Shown here in pieces: positions 2,362 to 18,522 of a stretch of 29,730 bases of DNA. The translations under genes and the position numbers were made by a program. Below the pieces are notes generated by a model, which saw only the letters and a list, made by a program, of their open reading frames with translations, was not told the DNA's origin and did no database searches. Within the stretch, counting starts at the first letter, position 1. Every line of letters starts with the position of its first letter. The DNA comes from a virus, in IMG/VR virus record IMGVR_UViG_3300029448_000269, positions 1 to 29,730 of that record. One strand, given 5' to 3'.

Positions 2362-2705
2362 ATTACAATATAATCATTATCAAAGACATCATTGCCTGTT
2401 GGAACAGAATATTCTCCACTATTAACAGAATAGCTTGATATAGTTTGGTCTGTACAAAAAACCTTATCTTTATATATTACATTACTTCCTTCTTTTAATG
2501 TTAGGTCATAAAACCTTCCTTCTACTAATACAGGACTTAATGCTTTAGATACTACTAAGTAATTCTTGTCTGTCGTTGTGCTTACTGTGTATGTCGTTGA
2601 GGTGTTAGTTGAATCATCTCTTAAAATCATACTCACACTTGAAGCATAACTTCTAGGAATTATTTTGAAAGTTTGTGCTGATGCAGATGTTGTTAAGTGT
2701 ATCAT
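2358..2705 (-). CDS. small virion-associated protein of unknown function
   Basis: 115 aa, rich in Ser/Thr, with alternating hydrophobic residues suggesting a beta-sandwich or immunoglobulin-like fold, and no signal peptide or membrane segment. It lies between the tail tube and portal genes and overlaps the portal start by 4 bp. It is the first gene of a transcription unit: a strong terminator (2741-2770) ends transcription from the tail tube side, and an ACGTTATA element sits exactly 5 nt before the ATG. A head decoration or neck protein would fit. I do not recognise the family. Confidence 0.55.
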   Translation of the reverse strand: MIHLTTSASAQTFKIIPRSYASSVSMILRDDSTNTSTTYTVSTTTDKNYLVVSKALSPVLVEGRFYDLTLKEGSNVIYKDKVFCTDQTISSYSVNSGEYSVPTGNDVFDNDYIVI

Positions 2706-2710
2706 ACTTA

Positions 2711-2735
2711 TATAACGTATATAGTTTAAATTTTG
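2711..2735 (-). promoter_or_regulatory. late-promoter-like element, copy 5 (115-aa gene and portal)
   Basis: On the minus strand CAAAA (2735-2731), 12 nt, ACGTTATA (2718-2711), 5 nt, then the ATG at 2705. The same layout precedes four other genes. It lies just downstream of a terminator, which favours a promoter over a ribosome-binding signal. Confidence 0.6.
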
Positions 2736-2740
2736 TGTAT

Positions 2741-2770
2741 AAAAAAAGAGGAGTTAGAAACTCCCCTTTT
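2741..2770 (-). terminator. Rho-independent terminator after the tail tube gene
   Basis: Minus-strand GGGGAGTT-TCT-AACTCCTC forms an 8-bp stem (one G-U pair that would be an A-C mismatch on the plus strand) followed by seven T. The strand-specific wobble and T tract orient it with the minus-strand genes. Confidence 0.8.
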
Positions 2771-2825
2771 AAATCAAAATAAACTAAAAATTAATGAAAA
2801 CTTTAATAAATATACAAAAATTATT

Positions 2826-3350
2826 TTAGTTTGGTGTTATTTGAGTTGCACTTGCATCTCCTGTTACTACAGTGCCTGTAATAAAGTAAGGCGGTGCAGT
2901 TTCTTGTGCTACAAGTGTTAAAGTAAAACCACTAAGGTCTCCCATAGCTGCTCCACTTACAATCGTACCACCTGTTACCTCTGCTCCATGCTCTAATCCC
3001 ATTACAAAGTAATTACCATTATAATCTTCTACAAAAACGTGTGGTCTTGCGTGTGCGATTAATTTTAGTTCTTCCTGTGTAGCTTTTTCAAGAAACGTAA
3101 GTGTTAAATTTAATGTTGATTCGTAGAATGTAGTTCCATTTTCTCTTGAGCTGTTTACTGCTGTTTCTAAAGAAGAATTGCCTTTTATATCAAACTGAAA
3201 TAAAGCAGGACTTCCTGCTAAAGCAGTAACTTCTCCTCCTGAAATCGTAGCAGCACCAAGAGTACCGAAATCTGCAAAGTAAACAGTTTTTAAACCACCT
3301 ACTGCCGATTTGCAAGGAACTTTTCTACCTGTTGTTAGTGTACAAGCCAT
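2826..3350 (-). CDS. putative major tail tube protein
   Basis: 174 aa, beginning MACTLTTGRK and rich in Gly, Thr, Ala and alternating hydrophobic residues, the profile of a beta-barrel tube or decoration protein. It follows the major capsid gene and is closed by a strong terminator, as expected for an abundantly made structural protein. Size fits a siphovirus tail tube subunit. The ATG is preceded by AAATT and there is no late-promoter element, so it is probably transcribed by read-through of the weaker hairpin at 3365-3390. A secondary capsid or neck protein is the alternative. Confidence 0.55.
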   Translation of the reverse strand: MACTLTTGRKVPCKSAVGGLKTVYFADFGTLGAATISGGEVTALAGSPALFQFDIKGNSSLETAVNSSRENGTTFYESTLNLTLTFLEKATQEELKLIAHARPHVFVEDYNGNYFVMGLEHGAEVTGGTIVSGAAMGDLSGFTLTLVAQETAPPYFITGTVVTGDASATQITPN

Positions 3351-3364
3351 AATTTTAAGTTGTT

Positions 3365-3390
3365 AAAAAAGGGTAGGGTTAACTACCCCT
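3365..3390 (-). terminator. terminator or attenuator between capsid and tail tube genes
   Basis: Minus-strand GGGTAG-TTAACC-CTACCC (3388-3371) followed by six T (3370-3365). No promoter-like element lies between it and the tail tube start at 3350, so it probably works as a leaky terminator that lowers tail tube expression relative to capsid. Confidence 0.65.
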
Positions 3391-3405
3391 TTATATGTTA
3401 GTTAA

Positions 3406-4329
3406 TTAAGAGTAAAGAACTACGTCAGCACCTACACCGATTTGGCATCCTGCTGTATATCTCATAACTACTCTCACATTTTGTGAACCGTCAATATCTG
3501 ACATATCAATTACCTTCACTTCATTTCTATCGTTTAGTAATCCCGTGCCGAAGAAAAGATTGCTTGACCTTGCAGCGATTGCTCTGTTATCAGCAAAACC
3601 TGATGATTGATAGATTCTAACACCATCAAAAAACAAACCATCTAAAGATTGGTTGTTTCCTTTGTTATCGTAACCTGCAGCTCCTAATCCAGATGCTCCA
3701 AACCCTCCTAAAGCTCTAATGTAAGCTCTATAAATGTTTGATGATACATAAATAATAAGGTCATCTGCTCCGTAAACTGCTGATGGAATAGCATCAACGA
3801 TAGCTCCTAATTGAGCAATTACGTTTGCAGAAGTTACAGTTGCAGCAGATACATCCACTACTGTTGAATCTGCTCCTGCTAATGTAACAAAACCGTCGAA
3901 GTTTCCTTCTCCTGCTGACCCTGACCAAATAGATGATTCAGTAGCACTCGCTACCTCTGCAGCTACTCTTGCAATAACAAAGTCAGAAAATAATTTTGGT
4001 AGGTTGTCGAACGCTGAAAAGCCCATCTGAGCCGCTTCCCAATCCGAATGAAGCTCTTTTTTACAAATTTGTAAATTTACTTGCAGTTCAGCAGGTGTTA
4101 ATACTTTTTCAGTAAGTGTAAGACCTGAAGTTGATGAATCAAAGTCACAGTCAGCACTTCTTACTAAGTTTGAGAAAGCCCCTACTTTCATAGCAGCTTT
4201 GTACTTAATGTTTGGTAGTATGCTAATAGCAGCATCATCTAAGGTTTTTGCTGTCAATAAAGATGCAGCAATATATTTACCTGCGAATTCACCTGCGTAG
4301 CTACTACTTGTAATAGTTGGATTTGGCAT
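3406..4329 (-). CDS. major capsid protein (HK97-like)
   Basis: 307 aa. It lies directly after the acidic coiled-coil scaffold candidate and two genes after the XkdF-type protease, the usual assembly cassette. The sequence is Ala/Ser/Gly-rich with an early helical segment and a mid-region (NFDGFVTLAG near residue 143) resembling the P-domain region of HK97-fold capsids, then a stretch near residues 190-215 with alternating hydrophobics (DDLIIYVSSNIYRAYIRAL). The length is typical of a small HK97-fold capsid without an internal scaffold. A terminator-like hairpin follows immediately. The call combines position, composition and remembered family likeness. Confidence 0.8.
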   Translation of the reverse strand: MPNPTITSSSYAGEFAGKYIAASLLTAKTLDDAAISILPNIKYKAAMKVGAFSNLVRSADCDFDSSTSGLTLTEKVLTPAELQVNLQICKKELHSDWEAAQMGFSAFDNLPKLFSDFVIARVAAEVASATESSIWSGSAGEGNFDGFVTLAGADSTVVDVSAATVTSANVIAQLGAIVDAIPSAVYGADDLIIYVSSNIYRAYIRALGGFGASGLGAAGYDNKGNNQSLDGLFFDGVRIYQSSGFADNRAIAARSSNLFFGTGLLNDRNEVKVIDMSDIDGSQNVRVVMRYTAGCQIGVGADVVLYS

Positions 4330-4340
4330 TTTATTTAATT

Positions 4341-4898
4341 TTAATTATTGGTTAATTTTTTCATTACTCTATCTAAAGTTGTTTCTTTTCGGTTATTACC
4401 GAACCTTACTTTAAATTTCTCTTGAACTTCAGGATTATGAGCAATAGGCTCAACAGCAGGAGTTTCACTTAGTTCTTCCTTAACTTGTTTTGCCATTTCC
4501 TCTTTTTCTTCTTTAACTTCCTTTAGTTCATTAATCATACCTTTGATTTCTTCAACGGCAGAGTTAAATTCTTCTTTCGAAACGTACTTCATTTCTTCTT
4601 TATCTTCTTCCTCTACTTCTTCTTCTTTTTCTTCCTCAGCTTTAATTTCAGCAATAATTCCTTCTTCTTGTATAGAAAGCATTTTTCCATCTTCCATAAG
4701 GTATTCCCCTTTAGGTAAAGCTACTTTTTCATCCTCTGTAAGAATAAATATTTCGTTTCCTGCTTCAAAAGCCTCAGCTTCTAATACAGTTCCATTTTCT
4801 AGCTTAAGTTGTGCTAATTCTAATGCTTGCTTTGGAGATTCTGGTACTTCTTCCCCTAAGTAAGTCTTGATTTTGTTTAAGATTTCTGTTGATTTCAT
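4341..4898 (-). CDS. putative capsid scaffolding protein
   Basis: 185 aa, highly acidic and Glu/Lys-rich. Residues 80-145 are an uninterrupted charged helix suited to a coiled coil, and the C-terminus is basic (RFGNNRKETTLDRVMKKL), as in scaffolding proteins that bind capsid through a basic tail. The N-terminal 80 residues look like a small beta-rich domain containing KLENGTVLEAEAFEAGNE. It sits 11 bp before the capsid gene and heads its own unit, with ACGTTATA exactly 5 nt before the ATG. Function is inferred from composition and position. Confidence 0.65.
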   Translation of the reverse strand: MKSTEILNKIKTYLGEEVPESPKQALELAQLKLENGTVLEAEAFEAGNEIFILTEDEKVALPKGEYLMEDGKMLSIQEEGIIAEIKAEEEKEEEVEEEDKEEMKYVSKEEFNSAVEEIKGMINELKEVKEEKEEMAKQVKEELSETPAVEPIAHNPEVQEKFKVRFGNNRKETTLDRVMKKLTNN

Positions 4899-4903
4899 AT
4901 TAT

Positions 4904-4928
4904 TATAACGTGTTAAAATTTATATTTG
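4904..4928 (-). promoter_or_regulatory. late-promoter-like element, copy 4 (scaffold, capsid, tail tube)
   Basis: Minus-strand CAAAT (4928-4924), 12 nt, ACGTTATA (4911-4904), 5 nt, ATG at 4898. It occupies the 35-bp gap after the 43-aa ORF. Confidence 0.6.
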
Positions 4929-4933
4929 CATTT

Positions 4934-5065
4934 TCAAATTTTACCAATGCCTTGGTTTATCATATTTCCTTTACAGCACTTTACTGAATAGGTTTCATTT
5001 TTACATAAACATCCTCTACGCCCACCTCTTGGGCTTGTTTTGCTTGGTGTTTCAAATTTTTTCAT
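4934..5065 (-). CDS. 43-aa Cys-rich small protein
   Basis: The minus strand reads 43 codons: a Lys/Arg/Gly-rich N-terminus (SPRGGRRG), then CLC (Cys19, Cys21) and KCCKG (Cys30, Cys31), ending QGIGKI. Four closely placed cysteines could bind a metal. Its ATG overlaps the TGA of the preceding 39-aa ORF (ATGA), so the pair is translationally coupled. I remember similar short ORFs with a CLC...CC...QGIG pattern in flavobacterial phages, which supports its being real. Function unknown; it lies between protease and scaffold genes. Confidence 0.7.
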   Translation of the reverse strand: MKKFETPSKTSPRGGRRGCLCKNETYSVKCCKGNMINQGIGKI

Positions 5066-5181
5066 CTTCCTTGACCTCTATATTGTTTTTTATATTTGTT
5101 TTGTCCTACACTCGCATTTTTGCTGTGTGGATGTGATTTTCTTTTAGGTTTTATATAAACACTAACTATCTTTCTCGCCAT
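5062..5181 (-). CDS. 39-aa strongly basic small protein
   Basis: Starts at ATG 5181-5179 inside the end of the protease gene, about 20 bp before that stop, in another frame. The product is very basic (MARKIVSVYIKPKRK at the start, KYKKQYRGQGR at the end) with His-Pro-His in the middle. Its stop overlaps the ATG of the next small ORF. The double overlap, basic composition and remembered recurrence of this pattern beside prohead protease genes argue for a real gene. It may bind nucleic acid or act in capsid assembly; I cannot say which. Confidence 0.65.
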   Translation of the reverse strand: MARKIVSVYIKPKRKSHPHSKNASVGQNKYKKQYRGQGR

Positions 5182-5767
5182 CTTTAATAATTGCTCTAAT
5201 GCCAGATAATTTTTCCTCTGCTTCTTCCTCAAAGTCGTTTACAGGCTCTTTAGGTCTTTCCATCTTGTCTGCAAAGTAACCCTCTATTGAGAATCCTTTT
5301 ACTTTACCTGTTTTAACAAAGTTGTTCCATATTTCATCATTGTTTACTTTTACAGAGCCCATCCAAGTACCTACAGGAACATTCAATCCATACTTACGAG
5401 ATTTGTCGTGTACTTTATCTTCTACTAACCAAGATTCTACTAATGTTAGTCCGTTTATTGTATGTTGGTGTTCTAATGTAGCTTTAGATTGATTTCCGTT
5501 CATTAAGTAAAGCTGTGATGCTTTCTCTACAGTTTGTTTAGAAAAGTATATGTAATATTCTTCATCTCCTTTTTTACGATAGATTGGTTTGTTAGGAATT
5601 AGTAAAGCACCCATTAAAATACGTTTTTCTTTATCTACTTCAGCAAGTTTTATTTCTTCGCTTTTAAGTGCTATAAAATCTTCTTCTATCGCAGGATTCT
5701 CTACAACCGAAATAGCTTCTATTCCTGTTAATTCATCATCTCCTAATATTAATTCAACTATTCTCAT
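5162..5767 (-). CDS. prohead protease, XkdF-type putative serine protease
   Basis: 201 aa. It matches the XkdF family pattern: an N-terminal segment with VVENPAIEEDFIAL, a core with GALLIPNKPIYR, then TLEHQHTINGLTLVESWLVE (around residues 98-117), GTWMGSVKV and KGFSIEG. The conserved His in LEHQH and Ser in GFSIEG are plausible catalytic residues for cleavage of scaffold and capsid during head maturation. It stands between the tape measure gene and the scaffold and capsid genes. Its own late-promoter-like element lies 5 nt before the ATG. The acidic C-terminus (160-201) carries the overlapping start of the 39-aa gene. Confidence 0.85.
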   Translation of the reverse strand: MRIVELILGDDELTGIEAISVVENPAIEEDFIALKSEEIKLAEVDKEKRILMGALLIPNKPIYRKKGDEEYYIYFSKQTVEKASQLYLMNGNQSKATLEHQHTINGLTLVESWLVEDKVHDKSRKYGLNVPVGTWMGSVKVNNDEIWNNFVKTGKVKGFSIEGYFADKMERPKEPVNDFEEEAEEKLSGIRAIIKDGEKDS

Positions 5768-5772
5768 ATATG

Positions 5773-5797
5773 TATAACGTATTAATTTATTTTTTTG
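5773..5797 (-). promoter_or_regulatory. late-promoter-like element, copy 3 (protease unit)
   Basis: Minus-strand CAAAA (5797-5793), 12 nt, ACGTTATA (5780-5773), 5 nt, ATG at 5767. It fills the gap right after the tape measure stop codon (5799). Confidence 0.6.
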
Positions 5798-5798
5798 T

Positions 5799-7529
5799 TT
5801 ATCCTATACTTGCTCCCTCAATAATATTTCTGTCTAATTCTTGTGCTGTGCTTACATCATTAGAAACTACATAAGCCCTAGTTGGTTGTGCAGACTGCCC
5901 TGCAATAACATCTGCTAATTGATTAGTAACTCCTGCACCAACTACATTAAAAGATGGTGCTAGTGAACCAGCTCCTGCTGATGCAATGTTAGATGTTGTT
6001 GCGCCTGCACCATTAGGTTTAACTGACTTTATAGCCTTGACTGCTTGAAAACCTGTTGCTAAAACACCTGCAATACTTGTTACTCTTTGAATTGTAGCAA
6101 AAGGCTCAAGTAAAGTTGTTTCATTATCTAACACTTCTGTAACACCTAAATAAGTATTTGTTAACGCTTGAGCTATTGCAAATGCTTTACCTGCCTTAGA
6201 GTTCTTTCCGAGTATATTAGCAAGTGTTCCAAATGTTTGACTTATTATTGCAATCTTTTGTTGTTGTAGTATTTCTTCTCTTTTTATTTCTTCATCATCT
6301 TCTTTCTGCTGAGCATTTGAAATTAGCTTTTGATAATATAATATTACCTCAGCTTTCTGTGATTCAGTCGCATCTAATTCCTCTAACTCTGCTAATTTCT
6401 TTTCTTGTTCTAATAAAAGTTTTTCTGATTCTTTTTCTGATTTTTGTTCCTTTATTTTTTGTTCAAAATCGTCTCTTATTTTTTGTATATCATTTAGACG
6501 TTTTTCTTCTGTAGCCTTTTCATCATCTATCTCTTTTTGTTTATCTTCTGCTTCTTTTTCTTTTTGGGCTTTTTCTTGATTTACTGCAGTAGTTATTTGT
6601 GTTTGTAGTAATCTTTGACTTCTTAACCTTTTAGTGTCTAAGTTAATTAGTTTAGCTTGTAACTCTGCAAGCTTGTCTTTGTCTTGAATAGTATTTTTAC
6701 CCAGAGCCATTTCTTCCTCTTGAGCTTTAATAAGCAATTTCTGAGCTGCTATCTCTTTTTGTGTAATGTTTTCTTCTATTGCTTGTGCTTTCCTAAGAAG
6801 TTCTATTCTTTCAGATGCGGAAAACCTTTCTCTATCTTCTGCCTTTAATCTTAAATCATTTATATCCCTGTTTGCTTTTGCTCTTTCTACTTGTAAGTCT
6901 CTTTGAATATGATGTGCTTTTTGTCTTGCTCTAGTTACTTTATCTATAGCACTTACTTCACTTACAGTTTCTTTTACAAAATTAGATACTGATTCCGCTG
7001 CACCCTCAAAACCATCTACAATAGTTCCTACTGGGTTTATTATAAATTTCAGCAATCCTTTACCTAAGCTTTTCAAAGAATCCATTGGGTTTGTAAATGC
7101 TTCTATTATTGCTTCCCCAAAATCTGCAAAAGCATCCATTACTTGTTTTGTTACAGCCCCTAAAGCTGCTAAGCCTCTTTGTAGTTTTTCTTGTCCCTCT
7201 TCCGATTGTGTAAATGCTGCTGCTAATGCAGTAACAGTAGCTACAAAAGCACCAATGACACTTGCCATAAGGATTGCATTAAGACCTTTAAAACCAAGTC
7301 CAGCACTTTTTATACCTTTTGTAAGTTCATTAAATTTAGTAATTGCACCGCCTGTAAATTTATCAAGTGTTTTACCAAAGTCACCTTGTTTCTTTGCAGC
7401 CTTTTCTACTTTCTTTTCGTAACCCTCGACTTTTTTTTCTAACTTGGTGTATTCTTTTTGCATTTCATCCAAGTTCTTGACAGCTTCTTTGTATTTTAAT
7501 TCAAAATTTATATATACTACCTTACTCAT
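5799..7529 (-). CDS. tail tape measure protein
   Basis: 576 aa. A long helical N-terminal segment (1-60, Lys/Glu heptads) is followed by a hydrophobic stretch at about 83-108 (ILMASVIGAFVATVTALAAA), a second weaker one near 160-175, then a long charged coiled coil (about 195-400, with repeated EKEAEDKQKE-like runs) and an Ala/Gly-rich hydrophobic region near 430-510. This is the usual architecture of a tape measure that sets tail length and helps DNA passage through the membrane. At 576 aa it predicts a short tail. It follows the baseplate-type gene and a 49-aa ORF. Confidence 0.8.
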   Translation of the reverse strand: MSKVVYINFELKYKEAVKNLDEMQKEYTKLEKKVEGYEKKVEKAAKKQGDFGKTLDKFTGGAITKFNELTKGIKSAGLGFKGLNAILMASVIGAFVATVTALAAAFTQSEEGQEKLQRGLAALGAVTKQVMDAFADFGEAIIEAFTNPMDSLKSLGKGLLKFIINPVGTIVDGFEGAAESVSNFVKETVSEVSAIDKVTRARQKAHHIQRDLQVERAKANRDINDLRLKAEDRERFSASERIELLRKAQAIEENITQKEIAAQKLLIKAQEEEMALGKNTIQDKDKLAELQAKLINLDTKRLRSQRLLQTQITTAVNQEKAQKEKEAEDKQKEIDDEKATEEKRLNDIQKIRDDFEQKIKEQKSEKESEKLLLEQEKKLAELEELDATESQKAEVILYYQKLISNAQQKEDDEEIKREEILQQQKIAIISQTFGTLANILGKNSKAGKAFAIAQALTNTYLGVTEVLDNETTLLEPFATIQRVTSIAGVLATGFQAVKAIKSVKPNGAGATTSNIASAGAGSLAPSFNVVGAGVTNQLADVIAGQSAQPTRAYVVSNDVSTAQELDRNIIEGASIG

Positions 7530-7530
7530 T

Positions 7531-7680
7531 TTATTTGTTTTTAATCTGTTTTAATTCTTTTTTAAGTTGCTGAAACCCTTCTTTGAATGTTTCTGGCATT
7601 TTATATTTGCCCTTTGCTATTTTTATGTTTTCACTACCATCATCAACAAATGCTAGTAAATCTAATATATTCTTTATCAT
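7531..7680 (-). CDS. 49-aa protein before the tape measure gene
   Basis: Starts ATG 7680-7678, overlapping the TGA of the 715-aa gene (ATGA), and ends 1 bp before the tape measure ATG. The product begins MIKNILDLLAFVDDGSENIK and ends in a Lys-rich helix. It fills the gap exactly, and both boundaries suggest coupled translation. The position next to the tape measure suggests a tail-assembly role, but there is no motif. Function unknown. Confidence 0.6.
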   Translation of the reverse strand: MIKNILDLLAFVDDGSENIKIAKGKYKMPETFKEGFQQLKKELKQIKNK

Positions 7681-9824
7681 AGGTTTAATAATTCTATATC
7701 TGCTTCCCCTGTTGTTAAGTCAGTTGTTATACTGTTAATTCTATAATCTGTTCCATTTATTACAAATTTATCTGCTAATGAATAATTAAGTAATATTTTT
7801 AGTGGTAGTCTTGCTTTTATTTTGCTTAGTCGATTCTTACTATCAAATACTTGTGAAATATAAGTAGAGTAATATTCAAGAAATAAACTCTTAGTAAATT
7901 CAGTAGTCTGTGTCCATTCACTAAACTCTTGGTTAAAATTTAATTGATGTAAACTTACAGCAGGGTTTTCATCAACACTATTAAATGGTAAATTTACGTT
8001 ATTCAATTGTTTATGACTTGAAGCCACTCCATTTACGTCTAAAGCATCTACAAAAGCTATACCTCCTGTATTGATGTTTATAGGATAAAATAACATCGGA
8101 CTCCCAATGTAAGGCTCTTGGTTACTATCTACATAATATCCCCATTGTATATTTTTTTGTGTTCCTCCGTTTACATCATTAAGTCTTTCGAATTGCATAT
8201 GACCAAATGGTGCTTCTACTTTATAGATTTCTCCTGCAAGTTGTGTTTCTCCTGCTTTGTATTTTATTTCAGACCAATCTTGACCATTAATCTTACCATA
8301 CTTGTCTGCTATAAATGTTTTTGTGTCTTTAAACTTAAAAACTATTTCTCTAAAAGGTAACGCTACATTAACTTGAGAGGTGTTTATATCAAGATACTCC
8401 GTTATATCGTAAGAAGTACCACCTGCATAAAAATCATTTAAAGGTTGCACTTTAATTACGTTGTTATCTAAAAAAGCTGTTAAATTAAACATCTGAAATA
8501 AACCTGCAAGAAAATCTATAATCTTTATATCAGGCATTTGTCTATCTACATAAAAAGTAAATGTTTCTCCTATTGCTATTGCAGGTGTTCTAAAAAACAA
8601 ATTACTATCTGTACCTCTGTTTGTGTTTATTTTCCAAACTAATTTGTCTAAAGAAATTACTGTTCCTGCATTATCAGGTGTTATTAAGACTTCATATGTT
8701 CCTGCTTCATAAATCCAATCATCATCTTCGTTACCTGAAGATTCATCTAAATTGTCATCACCTACAATATAACTTCCTGTTATGTTATTTTTTTGATAAA
8801 ATAAACTTCCATCTTTTGTTACTCTTAGTGAATAAGGGTCTGTCTCGCCTGTTGCTACATCTATCTCTAATTCAAATCTATCCATATTATCTCTCAAAGG
8901 CTCTCTTACTGTAATAAAGTCTGTTCCTGCAGTAACTAAGAAATCATTAATACTACTTCTAAAGTTATAATCCCCTGTTGAACTTGCTCCACCTGTTGTA
9001 TCTCCGAAACCTGTTATTTTAGTTTCAGGTGTATCTGTTAATTGTTCTACTGCTCCTTTCTTTCTATGAAGCCATAAAAACAAATGGTCAAACTCAGGCT
9101 TAAATGCGTTTTTGAAAAAGTCTGTACTAAAAGTAAAATCAAATTCTGTTAAGGCTTCTATTGCTTCTATTATCTTGTTTACTCGTATAGCATATTTTAA
9201 TTGATTCCATTTTACTCCGTGATTGTGTGAACCACCACCTGTAAAATATGCAAGATTTCCATCATCTGCAGTTTCTGCTGAATTTAAACTATTATAGAAT
9301 AATCTTTGTGTGTGTGTTATAAGTGGTGCTATAATATGATTTGTAGAACTTTGAATGTTTGTTAGTTTTGTTTCTACTGTTGAGGCATCATAGGTTAAAT
9401 CATATGTAGAAAAATCTAAGTCAGCAAGTTTTTTATCTCCTAAAGCATCTTTTATTTCTACTATGTCTCCAAAGAATGTTATTCTATAAGCATAGGGTTT
9501 ATTGTTTTTTAAGTTAACTCCCTCTAATTTTATTTTACCTGATTTGTAAGGTGAGTGGTTTATCTGGATTCTTGCTGTTACTTTTTTACGTGCATCAAAT
9601 CCACTTTGACTAATTGATTCATTACTAACAATATCAAAATTGTAATAGTGCTGAAATAACTTATTATTTGTGGAAGAAGCAGGTAAAGTAAAAGTCTTTG
9701 TAAAACTTGTAAATATTTTTGATATATCCCTTACATTTTGTATAGAATCTGTAAGGCTTACTGTTTCGTCTTTAAATAAGTCTACTCTTGTATCTTGTAT
9801 GTATAATTGTAACTCACGCTTCAT
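7677..9824 (-). CDS. putative tail tip or baseplate protein
   Basis: 715 aa. The N-terminus (ELQLYIQDTRVDLFKDETVS, then SFTKTFTLPAS) is followed by a beta-rich body with segments like GKIKLEGVNLKNNKPYAYRI and a long Gly/Asp/Thr-rich central region; no coiled coil, signal or membrane segment. The gene sits between the 315-aa structural gene and the tape measure. In siphoviruses distal-tail and hub proteins cluster around the tape measure, though usually downstream of it. I recall this N-terminal pattern from flavobacterial phages as an unnamed conserved tail protein. A Dit/Tal-like role is inferred. Confidence 0.55.
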   Translation of the reverse strand: MKRELQLYIQDTRVDLFKDETVSLTDSIQNVRDISKIFTSFTKTFTLPASSTNNKLFQHYYNFDIVSNESISQSGFDARKKVTARIQINHSPYKSGKIKLEGVNLKNNKPYAYRITFFGDIVEIKDALGDKKLADLDFSTYDLTYDASTVETKLTNIQSSTNHIIAPLITHTQRLFYNSLNSAETADDGNLAYFTGGGSHNHGVKWNQLKYAIRVNKIIEAIEALTEFDFTFSTDFFKNAFKPEFDHLFLWLHRKKGAVEQLTDTPETKITGFGDTTGGASSTGDYNFRSSINDFLVTAGTDFITVREPLRDNMDRFELEIDVATGETDPYSLRVTKDGSLFYQKNNITGSYIVGDDNLDESSGNEDDDWIYEAGTYEVLITPDNAGTVISLDKLVWKINTNRGTDSNLFFRTPAIAIGETFTFYVDRQMPDIKIIDFLAGLFQMFNLTAFLDNNVIKVQPLNDFYAGGTSYDITEYLDINTSQVNVALPFREIVFKFKDTKTFIADKYGKINGQDWSEIKYKAGETQLAGEIYKVEAPFGHMQFERLNDVNGGTQKNIQWGYYVDSNQEPYIGSPMLFYPININTGGIAFVDALDVNGVASSHKQLNNVNLPFNSVDENPAVSLHQLNFNQEFSEWTQTTEFTKSLFLEYYSTYISQVFDSKNRLSKIKARLPLKILLNYSLADKFVINGTDYRINSITTDLTTGEADIELLNL

Positions 9825-10771
9825 TATACTATGTTATTAATAATATCGTTAGCAAACTCTAGGTCTAACGTGTATTGAATTAGTTTGTCGTTTACGGATG
9901 TTTTAAATGTTAAAGAGTTTGTAGATATTGTAGATGGTCTCCAGACTGAATTAAAATAAATCCAAACATACTCACTTAACATAATATCTTGTATAACCTC
10001 ATTGTAACATTCGTCTATGTAGTCTGTGTTAAGTGTAACTCTTGTTCTTCCATTTTTGTCAAAGGTTTTGTTTTGATGACTATATCTGCTATAAGATGAA
10101 GATGATTCTACAAATATGTTTCTTTTAAATGTTTCTGATTTTGTGTTAAATGATTCTACGTTTTTTAAAAAGAAATAAAACTCTTGGAACATACCATAAC
10201 GATTTAAATAAACCATTTTTACATTTGTGTATTTAGGATTGCATACTCTTTTTATATCATATGTTCTGTAAGGTGTTGTTATTGTAGTGGTGTTGTTTGC
10301 TGCTATTGTAAACACGTCTAACACTCCTGAAGAATTAACTCCTATAAATTTACCTATTGTGTTGTCAGGCAGATATATAATTCCGTTTCCTAAACAATCT
10401 CCCACATATGTTGGGTCTATTTCATCTCTTAAAATCGGATTGTTACCAAATGTGAAAGTACCATATCCATCTAATCCTGTATGTGTTACTGCACTTTGAG
10501 CTGAGGGTGTACCTCCTCCATCTACCGCTGTAAACGTAGTTATAACGTAAGATATTGCTATTGTATCTGCAACAACTGTACTACTTGTAAAAACTATATT
10601 AACATAGTCTCTTGCTAAACTTGCTATTTCAAATACTGTTCTATTGCTTGTTGCGTTTTTTAGTATGGTATAACGTAACGTTCCATCTATTGTTAAAGCT
10701 AATTGTGCAGATAAATGGTTTGCTGTTGTAACTGTTACATAATAAGGGCTTCTAAGTAGTATCTGTGCCAT
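9824..10771 (-). CDS. conserved structural (tail) protein, function unknown
   Basis: 315 aa, beta-rich, with MAQILLRSPYYVTVTTANHL at the start and a motif VKMVYLNRYGMFQEFYFFLK near residues 190-210. No signal peptide or membrane segment. It overlaps the start of the 715-aa gene by one base, and its ATG is preceded by AATT. The neighbours (tail completion candidates upstream, baseplate candidate downstream) put it in the tail module; a distal tail or baseplate wedge component would fit. Two ACGTTATA octamers inside the gene, near 10540 and 10673, lack the upstream box and the ATG spacing and are probably chance. Confidence 0.5.
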   Translation of the reverse strand: MAQILLRSPYYVTVTTANHLSAQLALTIDGTLRYTILKNATSNRTVFEIASLARDYVNIVFTSSTVVADTIAISYVITTFTAVDGGGTPSAQSAVTHTGLDGYGTFTFGNNPILRDEIDPTYVGDCLGNGIIYLPDNTIGKFIGVNSSGVLDVFTIAANNTTTITTPYRTYDIKRVCNPKYTNVKMVYLNRYGMFQEFYFFLKNVESFNTKSETFKRNIFVESSSSYSRYSHQNKTFDKNGRTRVTLNTDYIDECYNEVIQDIMLSEYVWIYFNSVWRPSTISTNSLTFKTSVNDKLIQYTLDLEFANDIINNIV

Positions 10772-10773
10772 AA

Positions 10774-11292
10774 TTAATTCTTATTCATATTTTCTGGAAA
10801 AAACTTTTCATCTTGTTCTATATCAAAAACAAAAGCATCTCTTAACTCTTGTGGTAAAAACTTAAATGCAGCTTGAAAAGGTTTTGTAAAAAAATAACTT
10901 GGTTTTATTCCATTATTAAAAACACTTCTTGCAACTAAATATCTTAAACTTTTTCTAGGTATAAATTTACCTTGCTTATCCCTTACACCTTTTAACCCTT
11001 TTCTTATTACCCATTGGTCAAATGCTTTAGATGGTGGCATTTTAGAACCATAACTATATGGGGTGTTGTATTTTACCTTTTTACCACTTACTCCTAAGTC
11101 TTGAAAGAAGCCGTATTTCTCCATACTAAACAAAACATCAATACTATCTTTATATCTGTTTACTTTGTATTCCAGACTATCAGAAAGTTTGTTAGTTGTA
11201 TTCTTTTTTTTCTTAACAAGCTCCTGTCTTGCTTCTTTTACTACATATTTAGCAAAAGCATTCATTATCTTTTCTACTTCTTTTAACTGCAT
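10774..11292 (-). CDS. putative tail completion (HK97 gp10-like) protein
   Basis: 172 aa, basic. A helical start (KIMNAFAKYVVKEARQELVK) with a Lys-rich loop and a NKLSDSLEYKVN segment is followed by YGFFQDLGVSGKKVKY and a C-terminal PSYFFTKPFQAAFKFLPQEL. HK97 gp10-type neck proteins share this plan: a helix, a 'tG.L..s' segment, a central 'Y..f.e.Gt' and a terminal 'pf..pa' helix. It overlaps the 156-aa gene by 10 bp and ends 2 bp before the next gene. The resemblance is by pattern only. Confidence 0.5.
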   Translation of the reverse strand: MQLKEVEKIMNAFAKYVVKEARQELVKKKKNTTNKLSDSLEYKVNRYKDSIDVLFSMEKYGFFQDLGVSGKKVKYNTPYSYGSKMPPSKAFDQWVIRKGLKGVRDKQGKFIPRKSLRYLVARSVFNNGIKPSYFFTKPFQAAFKFLPQELRDAFVFDIEQDEKFFPENMNKN

Positions 11293-11753
11293 ACGTTTAT
11301 ATCATTACTTATTAATACATTAAACGTACAAGCTACCCCTGCTAATTGGTTTTCAAACCTTTCGTAAAAGAACTCACAAGATGCTTCACCATCTAACTGG
11401 TATTTATCTGAATATAGATTTCCTTTACTTAACAATCCTACTAACTTATTTACTACCGCTAATTGTGTGTTTAGGATGTCTTGTTCATTGTTGTTACCTA
11501 CAAATACATCTGTTGTTTCATCTTTAGATTGGTCAACTATGTCCATTGCCATTACCGTTATGTTAAAGTTGAGGACTTGTTCTTGTATGTTTACAGAGTT
11601 TACTATTATATGACTTAATGGGAATATAGTTTGTTTAGATAAGTCTATATCAAAGATGTCTCCAGTTGTTACTGTGTTGACATTTTCGTCTGCTAAAAGA
11701 TTTGTCTTTAGTGTTTGTGTTATTTGATAATATCCTCTTACCCCTTGATTCAT
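11283..11753 (-). CDS. putative tail terminator or neck protein
   Basis: 156 aa. Contains VNTVTTGDIFDIDLSKQTIF, LSHIIVNSVNIQEQVLNFNI, MDIVDQSKDE and a C-terminal FENQLAGVACTFNVLI. The pattern of strands around a helix with a C-terminal strand resembles tail terminator proteins. It starts with an ATGA overlap on the stop of the frameshifted tail chaperone product (11750-11752), which supports both the frameshift and tight coupling. I remember the family as strongly conserved in Bacteroidota phages without a firm name. Confidence 0.5.
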   Translation of the reverse strand: MNQGVRGYYQITQTLKTNLLADENVNTVTTGDIFDIDLSKQTIFPLSHIIVNSVNIQEQVLNFNITVMAMDIVDQSKDETTDVFVGNNNEQDILNTQLAVVNKLVGLLSKGNLYSDKYQLDGEASCEFFYERFENQLAGVACTFNVLISNDINVCS

Positions 11754-12011
11754 TTTTTAAATTTGTTTTTTATTTGGTTTGCCTCAATTTCTGCTTTCTC
11801 TTTCATAAATGTTAAAGCATAAAGGCAAGTATGTACTCCTAGTTTAGTGATATCTTCAAATCTTCTAATATCGCCTTGAGCGAGCCCGAAAAGCGATTGA
11901 TACCATCCATATCGTTTACCGAAAGATGCTGTTGCGCTAAGGCTATCTCCTCCTGTCCTAAATAATTCATCATAGCTTTCGATAAGTCCATCCCTAAATG
12001 ATAAAAAAAAA
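11750..12011 (-). CDS. -1 frame extension of the tail assembly chaperone (GT-like fusion)
   Basis: After slippage on the T run at 12011-12003, the -1 frame reads 84 codons without a stop, beginning LSFRDGLIESYDELFRTGGD, with YGWYQSLFGLAQGDIRRFED in the middle and a charged helical end (MKEKAEIEANQIKNKFKK). It ends at TGA 11752-11750, overlapping the next ATG. The predicted fusion is 243 aa: 159 residues from the 0 frame plus 84. The extension has no suitable ATG start at its head and would otherwise be an unexplained open frame running through a gene. This is the G/GT arrangement of long-tailed phages, where the fusion chaperones tube and tape measure. Confidence 0.75.
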
Positions 12012-12480
12012 GTATGGAACTTAACACCGCATCCATTGGCATCTCTTTCATTATATCTGTATCCTCAGCCTTGTAATCTTCTATTAGATATTTGTCTTTA
12101 TATTTTTGTTTTATCGGTCTATAAAGAACCGCCATAGCCCTGTGCATATTTTCATAGTCTCCTATATAAGTATCTAAGTCTATGTATTCCCCAAAAGACA
12201 TATCTTCTAACTTAGGAATAAACCCATAAGACGTTTCATTTATTTTAAACTCTTTAACTAGGTTTGGCTTTTCATTAAACATTGTAGATAATATTTCTGT
12301 AACATCTTTAATGCTCGACGCTTTCATTCCTAATATAACATCACCTCTTAGCCCACAAAATATCTCAATCATTTTTATTGCTAAGAAATTTTCATCTTTA
12401 TTATCTTCCTGTATCTTTAAATACTTTTGATATTGTCCTAATGTTATTTCACTTAATGTATCTGGTACTTCTAGTTTCAT
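11839..12480 (-). CDS. tail assembly chaperone, 0-frame product
   Basis: 213 aa. It begins MKLEVPDTLSEITLGQYQKY and has FGEYIDLDTYI and MHRAMAVLYRPI in the middle, a pattern I associate with flavobacterial phage proteins near the tail genes. Beyond the T run the 0 frame adds a short helical tail ending LKAILEDLKISLN. It carries no enzymatic motif. The evidence for the chaperone role is the programmed -1 frameshift signal near codon 157-159 and the position before the tail genes. The ATG is preceded by ACGTTATA at 5 nt, so this gene heads the tail transcription unit that runs to the tape measure. Confidence 0.65.
   Translation of the reverse strand: MKLEVPDTLSEITLGQYQKYLKIQEDNKDENFLAIKMIEIFCGLRGDVILGMKASSIKDVTEILSTMFNEKPNLVKEFKINETSYGFIPKLEDMSFGEYIDLDTYIGDYENMHRAMAVLYRPIKQKYKDKYLIEDYKAEDTDIMKEMPMDAVLSSILFFYHLGMDLSKAMMNYLGQEEIALAQQHLSVNDMDGINRFSGSLKAILEDLKISLN
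12003..12011 (-). promoter_or_regulatory. slippery site for -1 ribosomal frameshifting
   Basis: Nine consecutive T on the minus strand, read CTT TTT TTT TAT in the 0 frame. T TTT TTT (12010-12004) is a perfect slippery heptamer. Both frames stay open and protein-like downstream. Confidence 0.75.
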
Positions 12481-12485
12481 ATATA

Positions 12486-12510
12486 TATAACGTATAAATA
12501 ATTATTTTTC
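12486..12510 (-). promoter_or_regulatory. late-promoter-like element, copy 2 (tail unit)
   Basis: Minus-strand GAAAA (12510-12506), 12 nt, ACGTTATA (12493-12486), 5 nt, ATG at 12480. It sits in the 35-bp gap after terL. Confidence 0.6.
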
Positions 12511-12515
12511 GTTTG

Positions 12516-13679
12516 CTACTGTATTGCATATCTTCCAAAGTTTGGTCTACTTAAAATGCTGTATGTTGCATATCTAACTGCATCTATAATATGGTTGTTT
12601 TTATCTTCAGGTGTGTTTGTTAGTTTGCCAGACTTATCTTCTTTCCATTTGTAGTTTCTGAACTCCTGTATCGCGTTATTGCTTTTTGTTGTTATGTTTA
12701 TTTTATATCTTTTTAATAAATCAATCCCTGCGTTTATTGAATCCCTACCTTTTAAACTTGGTCTAATATTCCAACCCATACGCCTTAACTCCTCAATTAG
12801 TCTAGGTTCGCTACTATCCATATATAATTGGTTTCTATTTATCCCTACTTCTTTAAATGTGTTGTGTAGGTCTTTAGTTGTCATTTGTGTTCTGTAAAGA
12901 TGTTCTTTTATGTAAAGGTTATAATCTTTTGTGTAAACACTTACTAAAGTTGAGGGGTCATTAGAATATCCTGCATCTGCCCCATATGCTATAAACTCTG
13001 CATCCTCTGGTATTTTACTACATTCATTGTAATTAAATATAGTTGCCTTACTTATTCCTTTTAAACCTAATCCATATATCTGCCAATACTGCTCGTCTGT
13101 ATCTTTAAGGCGTTCTATTTCTGTTTTAATGCTTTGTTCTAAAAAAGGATTATCTAAATAAGTAGTCCTATAAAAGTCGCAATCATCTCTTGTAATTACT
13201 TTGTCATATATCCAGTGGTACTCGTCACTTGGGTTGTAGTCTATTATTATTTTTTCATCTGTTCTAAATATAAGCTGTTGCCAATCCTCCCAATTTAACT
13301 CATTAGCTTCATTGATAAACAAAAGATTCCTTTTACGCCCTCTTACTTTTTGTGGCATATCTAAACTAATAAACTCTATTAAGTTTCCAAATAGTTTGTA
13401 TTCGCTATTTGACTTGTTGTGGTTTAACTCTTGATAGATGTTTAGTTTTCTGAGAATATCTAAGAAGTCTCTCATTACAGAAGCCCTTAAACTAGGGAAT
13501 GCTTTACGACATATAGTAATTGTTTTGTTTTTATTTCGAGGTGTATATTCTAATATTATCCATAACAATATATTATAAGTCTTGCCAGAACGTGTTCCCC
13601 CTTGCTCGACGATTATTTTCTTGTCACTGTTTGTTAAGTGTTTATATACCTTGTTAGTCTGTATCTTCTGTTTTATCAA
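12516..13679 (-). CDS. terL: terminase large subunit
   Basis: 387 aa, the length of Terminase_3 (PBSX-type) large subunits. The N-terminal ATPase shows Walker A GGTRSGKT (27-34) and Walker B LLFINEAN (119-126). The C-terminal RNase H-like nuclease shows Asp235 in GADAGYS, Asp288 in YMDSSEP and Asp366 in HIIDAVRY, the three expected metal-binding acids. It cuts and pumps DNA into the prohead through the portal. It overlaps terS by 26 bp. The gene is complete and all key residues are present. Confidence 0.95.
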   Translation of the reverse strand: MIKQKIQTNKVYKHLTNSDKKIIVEQGGTRSGKTYNILLWIILEYTPRNKNKTITICRKAFPSLRASVMRDFLDILRKLNIYQELNHNKSNSEYKLFGNLIEFISLDMPQKVRGRKRNLLFINEANELNWEDWQQLIFRTDEKIIIDYNPSDEYHWIYDKVITRDDCDFYRTTYLDNPFLEQSIKTEIERLKDTDEQYWQIYGLGLKGISKATIFNYNECSKIPEDAEFIAYGADAGYSNDPSTLVSVYTKDYNLYIKEHLYRTQMTTKDLHNTFKEVGINRNQLYMDSSEPRLIEELRRMGWNIRPSLKGRDSINAGIDLLKRYKINITTKSNNAIQEFRNYKWKEDKSGKLTNTPEDKNNHIIDAVRYATYSILSRPNFGRYAIQ

Positions 13680-14013
13680 TTATCTCGACTTGAAAGTTAG
13701 TTGGCATTCCATCTGCTCCTGTTATCTCTTGCCTTTCTACATATCCTCTTTTCTTTCCTTTTGTTTTTAAATAAAAGATTGTAGCTGATGTTGAGTCCTC
13801 TCTTATCTGTTTATGTAAATGACTTTCTGCAAAATCTAAAGCAATGTTTTCTATATCCTTTACTTGTTTATTAAATTCTACATCTTCATTCATCCATTTA
13901 TAAAATGTACTTCTAGGTATCTCTGCTTTCTTGCAAGCTACTGTAACTACTCCTAAACTTTGTTCTAAAGCTTTTAGTATTGATTCTTTTTTTATATGTC
14001 TACTTTTGTTCAT
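13654..14013 (-). CDS. terS: putative terminase small subunit
   Basis: 119 aa. Residues 20-45 form a helix-turn-helix (VTVACKKAEIPRSTFYKWMN) followed by a helical dimerisation region and YLKTKGKKRGYVERQEITG, typical of small terminases that recognise the packaging site. Overlap with terL by 26 bp and adjacency support the call. It starts directly at the stop of the glycosyltransferase-like gene. A general HTH regulator is a much less likely alternative. Confidence 0.85.
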   Translation of the reverse strand: MNKSRHIKKESILKALEQSLGVVTVACKKAEIPRSTFYKWMNEDVEFNKQVKDIENIALDFAESHLHKQIREDSTSATIFYLKTKGKKRGYVERQEITGADGMPTNFQVEIIDKTEDTD

Positions 14014-14730
14014 TTAAAGATTTAATTTAATTGTAAACTCATTAGCTTTTCTTGTTACTTTTGAAATCATTGATGGATATAATTTTATTAAGTCTTTGAT
14101 TGCCTTTTTTTCCATATTAATAGTTCTATAATCTTTACACCCTCCATCTTTACCCCAGTGGTCATTTTCCCAATGTAAATATCTTATAGCTAAAATACCG
14201 CCTTTATCTTTTATATGTCTTAAGCAGATTTCATAATCTTCTTTAACAGGAAAGTTCTCGTCAAAGTAATACTCTCCATCATTTATCAAACCCATTAAAG
14301 ATGCAGTAACATAACTTCTTGTTAAAATAGGCTTATAAGGATAAGTTCCTCTAGGCGAACTCTCTGTCCTTGTACCCCAAATTTTATACCCCATTTGTTC
14401 ACTTAAATCAAAAAACTTAAGGAATTCTTCCATCCAGAAACCCTCATCTCTTACTTCTATTTTTTTTGTTTTTCTTTTATCTAAAAAATTATATCCTACA
14501 TTCTTCGCATCATCATCTAACATTACCACCCATTTTTCCTCTGTGTTTTTCAATATCCAATTTCTAGTTCTTGTAATACCCTTGACCTCTTTTGGCACAC
14601 AAACAATGTTTTTTATTAAACCTTTATATTGATGGTATTCGCTTTCAGGAATAAAAAAAGTGCAATTAGGCAATATCTTATTCGTTGTTGTAAGTCCTGC
14701 CCTTCCTTTACTCGGTACTGCTATTAACAT
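14014..14730 (-). CDS. TAGT-like glycosyltransferase (GT-A fold)
   Basis: 238 aa. MLIAVPSKGRAGLTT at the start, FFIPESEYHQY (25-35), KGITRTRNWIL (50-60) and the DxD-type motif VVMLDDDAKN (68-77) match the layout of TET-associated glycosyltransferases (TAGT), GT-A enzymes proposed to glycosylate modified bases in phage DNA. FPVKEDYEICLRH and HWENDHWGKDGGC further on suggest an intact catalytic domain. It overlaps the ParB-like gene by 23 bp and abuts terS, so it is made with packaging proteins, when progeny DNA would be modified. No TET/JBP hydroxylase or hydroxymethyltransferase is visible here, so the acceptor base is unknown. Glycosylation of a protein or another sugar acceptor cannot be excluded. 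Confidence 0.65.
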   Translation of the reverse strand: MLIAVPSKGRAGLTTTNKILPNCTFFIPESEYHQYKGLIKNIVCVPKEVKGITRTRNWILKNTEEKWVVMLDDDAKNVGYNFLDKRKTKKIEVRDEGFWMEEFLKFFDLSEQMGYKIWGTRTESSPRGTYPYKPILTRSYVTASLMGLINDGEYYFDENFPVKEDYEICLRHIKDKGGILAIRYLHWENDHWGKDGGCKDYRTINMEKKAIKDLIKLYPSMISKVTRKANEFTIKLNL

Positions 14731-15334
14731 TTAATCTTTTTTTAAATTCATCCCAATATAAAACTCTCTCTAAACTAACTGCATCAAAACCACTCCCCTT
14801 TTTGTAACCCCCTCTACGCACCATTCTAAGTTTTAATGTTTCTTTCAATTCCTCCCAATCAACCGAATTAGGTTCTGCCATAATAAGTATGTATTCTTTA
14901 GGTGGTTCTAATTGTACTGATTGTGGCAATTCAATATCATCATCTTCTTCTAATTCATTAATCGCATTATCAATATTTAAATCCAAACCCCAATCTTCAA
15001 GAGAATCTGTGTCCCAGTTATTCGCTAACATATCCCAATCCCACTCTCCAAACCCTACGTTATCTTTTATGATAAACTCTCTCTTTTGTTTTTCGCTTAA
15101 ATTATCAGCTTGTATAGCATATACTTCTTTTAACCCCGCTTCTACAGATGCTTTATATCTCATATTACCTCCAAGTATAATATTGTTTTCATCTACTACG
15201 ATAGGTCTCAGCTTTAACATCTCAGGAAAATCTTGTATGCTTTGGACAAGTTTCTCAAACTTATATCCTTTTATTATTCTTGGGTTGTCTGGATTTAATT
15301 TTAACTTACTGACTTTTACTTTGTTAGGTTTCAT
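14708..15334 (-). CDS. ParB N-terminal-domain protein
   Basis: 208 aa. The N-terminus is a ParB/Srx-type domain: VSKLKLNPDNPRI (8-20), a helix, LRPIVVDENNIILGGNMRYK (42-61) with the GGNMRY box, and EAGLKEVYAIQADNLSEKQK. It continues with FIIKDNVGFGEWDW, a segment commonly found in phage ParB proteins joined to DNA methylases. No methylase follows; instead residues 145-200 form an extra domain with VDWEELKETL and RRGGYKKGSGFDAVSLERVL. The overlap with the TAGT-like gene suggests joint action, perhaps guiding DNA modification. It is the first gene of its unit, with ACGTTATA 5 nt before the ATG. Confidence 0.75.
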   Translation of the reverse strand: MKPNKVKVSKLKLNPDNPRIIKGYKFEKLVQSIQDFPEMLKLRPIVVDENNIILGGNMRYKASVEAGLKEVYAIQADNLSEKQKREFIIKDNVGFGEWDWDMLANNWDTDSLEDWGLDLNIDNAINELEEDDDIELPQSVQLEPPKEYILIMAEPNSVDWEELKETLKLRMVRRGGYKKGSGFDAVSLERVLYWDEFKKRLNVNSSTE

Positions 15335-15339
15335 ATTTA

Positions 15340-15364
15340 TATAACGTTAATCTTTTTTATTTTC
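15340..15364 (-). promoter_or_regulatory. late-promoter-like element, copy 1 (ParB, TAGT, terS, terL)
   Basis: Minus-strand GAAAA (15364-15360), 12 nt, ACGTTATA (15347-15340), 5 nt, ATG at 15334. It overlaps the end of the 39-aa coiled-coil gene. It marks the boundary between DNA-metabolism and virion genes. Confidence 0.6.
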
Positions 15365-18262: not shown

Positions 18263-18475
18263 TTATATATTATATCCTTTGTTTTTTTTGTAATATTTGT
18301 TTACTAATGTTTCTTTATCATTTAAAAGAATGCCAGTATAATCTTTAGTCCAACATTGAAACGTTTCATTCCATACTCGTGGAGTCCATTCTGGGTCTAT
18401 ATCTGACCTCCAAGCAAATGAACCTGTTACTGCATAATCTTCTAATATTACTAATTCGTCTATAAGTGTTTTCAT
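18263..18475 (-). CDS. hypothetical protein, 70 aa
   Basis: Not recognised. Trp-rich (FAWRSDIDPEWTPRVWNETF, CWTKDYTG) with a helical basic C-terminus. It is preceded by a good Bacteroidota-type promoter (18493-18522), giving a leader of roughly 10 nt, and its ATG has CAATT before it. The dedicated host promoter suggests early expression. Confidence 0.6.
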   Translation of the reverse strand: MKTLIDELVILEDYAVTGSFAWRSDIDPEWTPRVWNETFQCWTKDYTGILLNDKETLVNKYYKKNKGYNI

Positions 18476-18492
18476 AATTGTTTTATTTATTA

Positions 18493-18522
18493 CAAATATA
18501 CAAATAATATCTTATTAACAAA
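18493..18522 (-). promoter_or_regulatory. Bacteroidota-type host sigma promoter
   Basis: Minus-strand TTTG (18522-18519), 18 nt, TATATTTG (18500-18493), matching the Bacteroidota primary-sigma consensus TTTG-N17-19-TAnnTTTG. It lies in a non-coding gap and points at the 70-aa gene. Confidence 0.65.

Follow-up and report, generated by a model that had tools for sequence, protein, structure and literature searches.

The subject of this analysis is how a small phage might mark its late genes. The window, meaning the whole stretch of DNA that was analysed, comprises the 29,730 bases of a virus record, and all its main genes lie on the minus strand. An earlier note on it had described five copies of an element with fixed spacing and had proposed these as late promoters read by a sigma factor of the phage itself. 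An exact search for the pattern SAAAW-N12-ACGTTATA-N5-ATG gave exactly five matches in the window, on the minus strand only and before just the genes starting at 15334, 12480, 5767, 4898 and 2705 that had been named, and the pattern was found in 0 of 100 dinucleotide shuffles (Table 1). The only further exact octamers in the window are those at 10541 and 10669 in the 315-aa gene, which lack the other parts, as had been stated. It was likewise correct that one copy stands right behind a terminator, since a terminator-like hairpin (2750-2764) lies just upstream of the 2705 copy, and that the host-type consensus is absent, with TANNTTTG missing from the minus strand of all five sites.

Table 1. 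Coordinates of the elements, the terminator and the sigma gene in the window.
Feature	Position	Strand	Description
Candidate late promoter, copy 1	15332-15364	-	GAAAA-N12-ACGTTATA-N5-ATG; before the ParB-N-like gene heading the packaging unit; predicted start 15334
Candidate late promoter, copy 2	12478-12510	-	GAAAA; between the large terminase gene, which it directly follows, and the 213-aa gene; predicted start 12480
Candidate late promoter, copy 3	5765-5797	-	CAAAA; before the S78-type prohead protease gene; predicted start 5767
Candidate late promoter, copy 4	4896-4928	-	CAAAT; precedes the scaffold-like gene and the major capsid gene; predicted start 4898
Candidate late promoter, copy 5	2703-2735	-	CAAAA; immediately follows the terminator and precedes the 115-aa and portal genes; predicted start 2705
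Terminator-like hairpin with T run (intrinsic type)	2738-2766 (hairpin 2750-2764)	-	Separates promoter copy 5 from the 174-aa gene
ACGTTATA octamer, other parts absent	10541-10548	-	Within the 315-aa gene; probably chance
ACGTTATA octamer, other parts absent	10669-10676	-	Within the 315-aa gene; probably chance
Host-type -7 element TATATTTG	18493-18500	-	Upstream of an early gene whose ATG is at 18475; normal leader, unlike the late class
ECF-like sigma factor, 163 aa	19676-20167	-	Suggested to recognise the five promoters; the CG of the octamer may be read by its helix with D70 and R73

Two parts of the original description had to be narrowed. The "G or C" given for the first base of the upstream box is a local trait: over the family the box is mostly C/T-AAA[AT], and in relatives with octamer class ACGTTATA its first base is C in 64% and T in 29% of the cases, followed by an invariant AAA. 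The placement of the copies in gaps between genes holds in part only: at 15334 the AAA-side element of the copy reaches into the 3'-terminal part of an ORF ending at 15347, and the 12480 and 5767 copies begin a few bases from the stop codon of the preceding gene. The element is present at the heads of units only, and the major capsid gene start, for example, is without it. The names scaffold, major capsid and portal were assigned from gene order, PHROG hits and the annotated portal of Nonlabens phage P12024S; the 213-aa gene belongs to a PHROG family of unknown function. Of note, the first late unit of the window is headed by ParB-N-like and glycosyltransferase-like genes (14708-15334), and in many relatives a promoter copy precedes a small GGKREGAGRKPK-type protein (terminase small subunit-like) instead. 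The major capsid gene and the 174-aa gene are separated by a further terminator-like hairpin (3371-3389), which is not followed by a promoter and is perhaps a partial terminator setting capsid excess.

A search with the capsid gene yielded 80 related environmental loci. Over 81 sequences, 98 of 129 sense-strand octamers stand exactly 5 nt before an ATG, compared with 14 octamers on the antisense strand, and alignment of homologous gene starts placed the element at the same five slots over a wide range of protein identity. We then relaxed the pattern by its four variable bases (AAA[AT]-N12-NNNNTATA-N5-ATG) and scanned the window plus 21 related contigs, 19 of these over their full length. This matched 71 candidate ORF starts, 69 of them in the five named slots; the remaining two were a truncated protease-slot copy, which makes a 70th match at the same virion-gene starts, and one before a 120-aa gene. 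Antisense ORF starts, which are fewer, gave 0 matches in the same sample. When the spacing was scanned, the main peak fell on the observed spacing, with side peaks that arise from A runs and TATA repeats. A blind pattern scan of IMG/VR, from which no prevalence figure can be derived, added 80 loci with the late genes of this family among the 108 new loci in the matches listed, the rest being other or chance matches; a scan with the P12024S-like pattern gave mostly chance matches (7/80). The late-promoter reading would have been contradicted by a motif missing from the corresponding gaps of close relatives, and it is found at the same gene starts in many of them. These comparisons make a strong computational case and support the view that the five elements represent a real, widely conserved late promoter. 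At the scaffold slot of locus L184 (G006), TCGTTATA is kept with the ATG 16 nt off and no purine at the expected start, and this element is possibly a decayed or moved promoter. The idea of an RNA gene behind orphan elements was rejected, since most copies lacking an ORF either matched the loose TTATATA class by chance or were artefacts of overlapping upstream ATGs.

Copies at which the element and the ATG are further apart made it possible to place the transcription start. Such copies, 7-37 nt from the ATG, occur in dozens of relatives, especially before the small terminase gene. Among 63 of these leadered copies the fifth base after the octamer is T in 52 and the sixth is a purine in 60, and T followed by a purine is the usual context of a transcription start. 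In the leaderless copies the fifth base is also T and the sixth is the A of the ATG. Because the purine is conserved at that distance in the leadered copies, we infer that transcription starts at the sixth base, which for the five window copies is the A of the ATG. The suggestion that the mRNAs would be leaderless or nearly so is supported indirectly by this comparison between copies, and the position of the element seems to be set by the transcription start rather than by the ATG, which argues against a role in ribosome binding. At the small terminase-like gene of relatives, the element lies 26-28 nt from the ATG with a palindrome, TTGATTAATCAA, in between, and the octamer class agrees with that of the rest of the genome. 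The palindrome is conserved and overlaps the predicted transcript start at L194, L196, L180, L183 and about 20 other loci; it is possibly an operator or a leader hairpin regulating the packaging unit.

The four variable bases of the octamer are uniform across slots within each genome and fall into the classes ACGT, ACGA, [ATC]TTA and AAGT. Most genomes have ACGT; ACGA or ACTA is found in G039 and G040, [ATC]TTA in G018, G021, G022, G044, G045 and G047, and G010 with its relatives has AAGTTAT[A/T]; in this last group the spacing to the AAA box is shorter by one base at each of the three slots read. Since dispersed sites change together, a common trans-acting reader is indicated. Octamer distance correlated with the distance between the sigma genes (r = 0.63, Mantel p < 1/2000, 21 genomes), a p value that is only a guide as the genomes are related; among the genes compared, which were those present in the window, the capsid gene reached r = 0.36 and the terminase 0.19. 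Over matched genome pairs sigma exceeded every other gene tested. Given sigma, the partial r of the other genes was at most 0.22, and that of sigma given each other gene was 0.27-0.71. Gene g118 had a higher raw value than sigma (r = 0.69) and was rejected as a better tracker, because it covers 12 genomes only and sigma reached 0.78 on the same pairs. The reader could still be another gene that travels with sigma, and class TTTATATA may represent a single sigma clade.

The sigma protein itself matches the PHROG sigma family weakly. The Pfam profile Sigma70_r2 matched 22 of 39 relatives (E up to 0.01), and the window protein scored 16.6 bits, below the cut-off of 24; no match to Pfam region 4 was found for sigma, and a sequence search of the PDB with the sigma profile gave no real match. 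The AlphaFold model has a mean pLDDT of 87 and a low pTM, which is normal when two domains are only loosely connected. Its best PDB matches are ECF sigmas, matched over the full length, structures of sigmaE region 2 match as well, and helices are predicted at residues 101-160 after a linker of low confidence. The protein has the predicted architecture of an ECF sigma, namely a region 2 domain and a region-4-type HTH domain on a short linker, without regions 1.1 and 3. The gene was detected in all 12 capsid-family contigs of at least 27 kb and is missing only from shorter fragments. The phage sigma is thus the probable reader, as the earlier note had proposed: the two co-occur, the element changes in concert as sigma diverges, and the predicted fold matches ECF sigmas. 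Like the AAA box, the region-4-like helix ISYYSLYNTYKNVK hardly varies. The region-2 helix, by contrast, changes along with the octamer: D70 and R73 occur in nearly all CG genomes, N70 and K73 in all TTA genomes, and D70 with K73 in G010 (AAG). Locus L140, with octamer ACGTTATA and without D70/R73, is an exception, and the pattern is suggestive of a recognition code. Some contigs deviate in their sigma genes. Only the second half of sigma, with a stop, is recognised at G004:C1:14903-15160, on one of the 12 contigs just named; an extra partial copy adjoins the sigma gene at G013:C1:18325-19046; and the contigs G029 and G033 (L098/L104, L111; 47.7 and 53.0 kb) contain two copies about 28-29 kb apart, as if two phage genomes had been fused, either by the assembly or within a single chromosome.

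A cultured relative shows the same arrangement. The capsid and portal genes of Nonlabens phage P12024S are 29-37% identical to those of the window phage, and its late genes are preceded by the same layout, CAAA...CGTTA-N7-ATG. At seven late-gene starts CGTTA occurs in the same register or one base off it, and five of these seven also have an exact AAACAAA box at the same spacing; the counts for both patterns were reached in 0 of 100 shuffles. A direct tblastn with sigma found no isolate phage, and with the alignment profile gene 33 of P12024S, annotated as Sigma-70 region 2 and located just upstream of the terminase module, was recovered (E = 5.7e-8). This sigma relative has D and R at positions 70/73, and its promoters have CGTTA. 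Since P12024S is in culture, the model can be tested at the bench. The host of the window phage is likely a member of the Bacteroidota, judging from the early promoter type and the Nonlabens relative, and this small marine phage probably infects flavobacteria. Bacterial genome contigs contained no sigma relatives, so that sigma gave no link to a host. A scan for sigma-70 promoters stayed at or below the shuffle level and is uninformative in this AT-rich DNA. One early unit or more has the host-type element TATATTTG together with a leader. This would agree with a handover from the host sigma to the phage sigma, a timing suggested by the promoter types.

We consider it quite probable that the five elements are late promoters of a likely Bacteroidota phage, read by its own ECF-type sigma and giving leaderless mRNAs at the heads of the units. 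In such a mechanism, the small sigma would be made from the early operon under host-type promoters, join the host RNA polymerase core and direct it to [C/T/G]AAA[AT]-N12-ACGTTATA. The octamer would act as a -10-type element at -13 to -6, with the AAA box at -29 to -27, and transcription would begin 6 nt past the octamer, which in the window would render the head mRNAs of all five late units leaderless. Characterised ECF promoters have a spacer between their two elements that is longer than the 12 bases seen here. The AAA box could instead be an AT-rich feature near -28 with a reader other than sigma region 4, by analogy with F. johnsoniae (PMC6847099).

Other readings of the element are conceivable. 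Bacteroidota do without SD sequences and A-rich positions near the start codon tune initiation (PMC6847099), so that an A/T-rich element this close to the ATG might be taken for a ribosome-loading signal. Such a signal would not be expected at unit heads only, nor to keep a purine 6 nt past the octamer when the ATG is moved away, nor to contain CG in a genome of 30% GC and change in concert across genes, and we regard this explanation as very unlikely. An operator of another phage protein, acting on a distant promoter or serving as a packaging site, would agree with the several copies per genome, with the ParB-N-like and small-terminase type proteins encoded nearby, and with the palindrome beside the small-terminase copy, which could itself be an operator. 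The element is non-palindromic, though, with a constant orientation and locked to the start position, and ParB-N is present in a minority of those relatives that all have the element; the probability of this reading is therefore very small.

A sigma of the host, either the housekeeping one or one of its numerous ECF sigmas, could also read the element with no need for the phage protein. The 5-nt distance between element and start would fit the geometry of 4-5 nt in F. johnsoniae (PMC6847099). Against this stand the absence of TANNTTTG at late sites and its presence before an early gene, and the fact that the octamer class follows the phage sigma gene, which a host sigma does not predict; we hold a host reader to be improbable.

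Phage-encoded sigmas reading late promoters are already known from phiEco32 and 7-11. The late promoters of 7-11, GTAAtg-(16)-aCTA, are read by sigma gp47 with a start 6-9 bp from the element (PMC8948821), and the middle and late promoters of phiEco32, tAATGTAtA, by gp36 with a start 6-8 bp downstream (PMC8948821). Like these phages, the window phage encodes a sigma and has one shared non-host consensus before its late genes. With 7-11 it shares a region-4-like C terminus of sigma and a bipartite consensus; it differs in sequence and spacing and in that 7-11 has an enterobacterial host and biochemical proof, and the available part of that paper does not mention a leaderless arrangement (PMC8948821). 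The likeness to phiEco32 lies in an octamer-like element ending in TATA and in a start that we place at 6, but phiEco32 has a single element and a sigma without region 4, where the window phage has a second upstream element and a region-4-like helix (PMC8948821). In 7-11 an earlier in silico prediction (PMC4331800) differs from the experimentally mapped consensus (PMC8948821), which is a warning for computational promoter calls such as ours; the evidence here is comparative and comes from many genomes.

The T4 late promoter is a single TATAAATA element read by gp55 with the sliding clamp, whereas the window element is bipartite with an invariant AAA box. With known ECF sigmas (E. coli sigmaE, SigW, M. 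tuberculosis SigH) the window sigma shares the two-domain size and fold at 10-18% identity only, and it is a phage gene whose promoter spacer is shorter. The Bacteroidota housekeeping promoter, TTTG/TANNTTTG, has 4-5 nt from its -7 element to the start and an AT-rich feature near -28 (PMC6847099); the distance to the start is similar, but TTTG/TANNTTTG is lacking at the five late sites. Host transcripts are mostly leadered, 87% by more than 10 nt (PMC6847099), and leaderless genes whose -10 box lies some 12 bp ahead of the start were reported in only 1 of 37 Bacteroidetes/Chlorobi genomes (PMC3160421). In that survey the -10 box also directly precedes the ATG, but the box found here is phage-specific and not TANNNT. 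We found no description of promoters of this kind in Bacteroidota phages in the open-licence literature, and in the literature searched late-gene control in small marine Bacteroidota phages appears to be undescribed.

A joint reading of all these data, to which we give somewhat less than even chances, would be that late in infection a broad set of Bacteroidota phages changes not only the promoter but also the mode of translation, with the phage-encoded ECF sigma placing the start of most messages at the heads of late units precisely on the start codon, with D70 and R73 reading the G and C of the octamer, and with the natural sigma-promoter series CGTTATA, CGATATA, TTATATA and AAGTTAT giving a recognition code. 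Studies of how ECF sigmas recognise -10 elements, and the design of orthogonal expression tools for Flavobacteria, could draw on the co-varying sigma-promoter pairs. If true, the model would mean that the unusual promoter code of the host is bypassed by the phage's own sigma, and that leaderless late messages occur in a phylum where they are rare, which would raise the question of how Bacteroidota ribosomes initiate on them.
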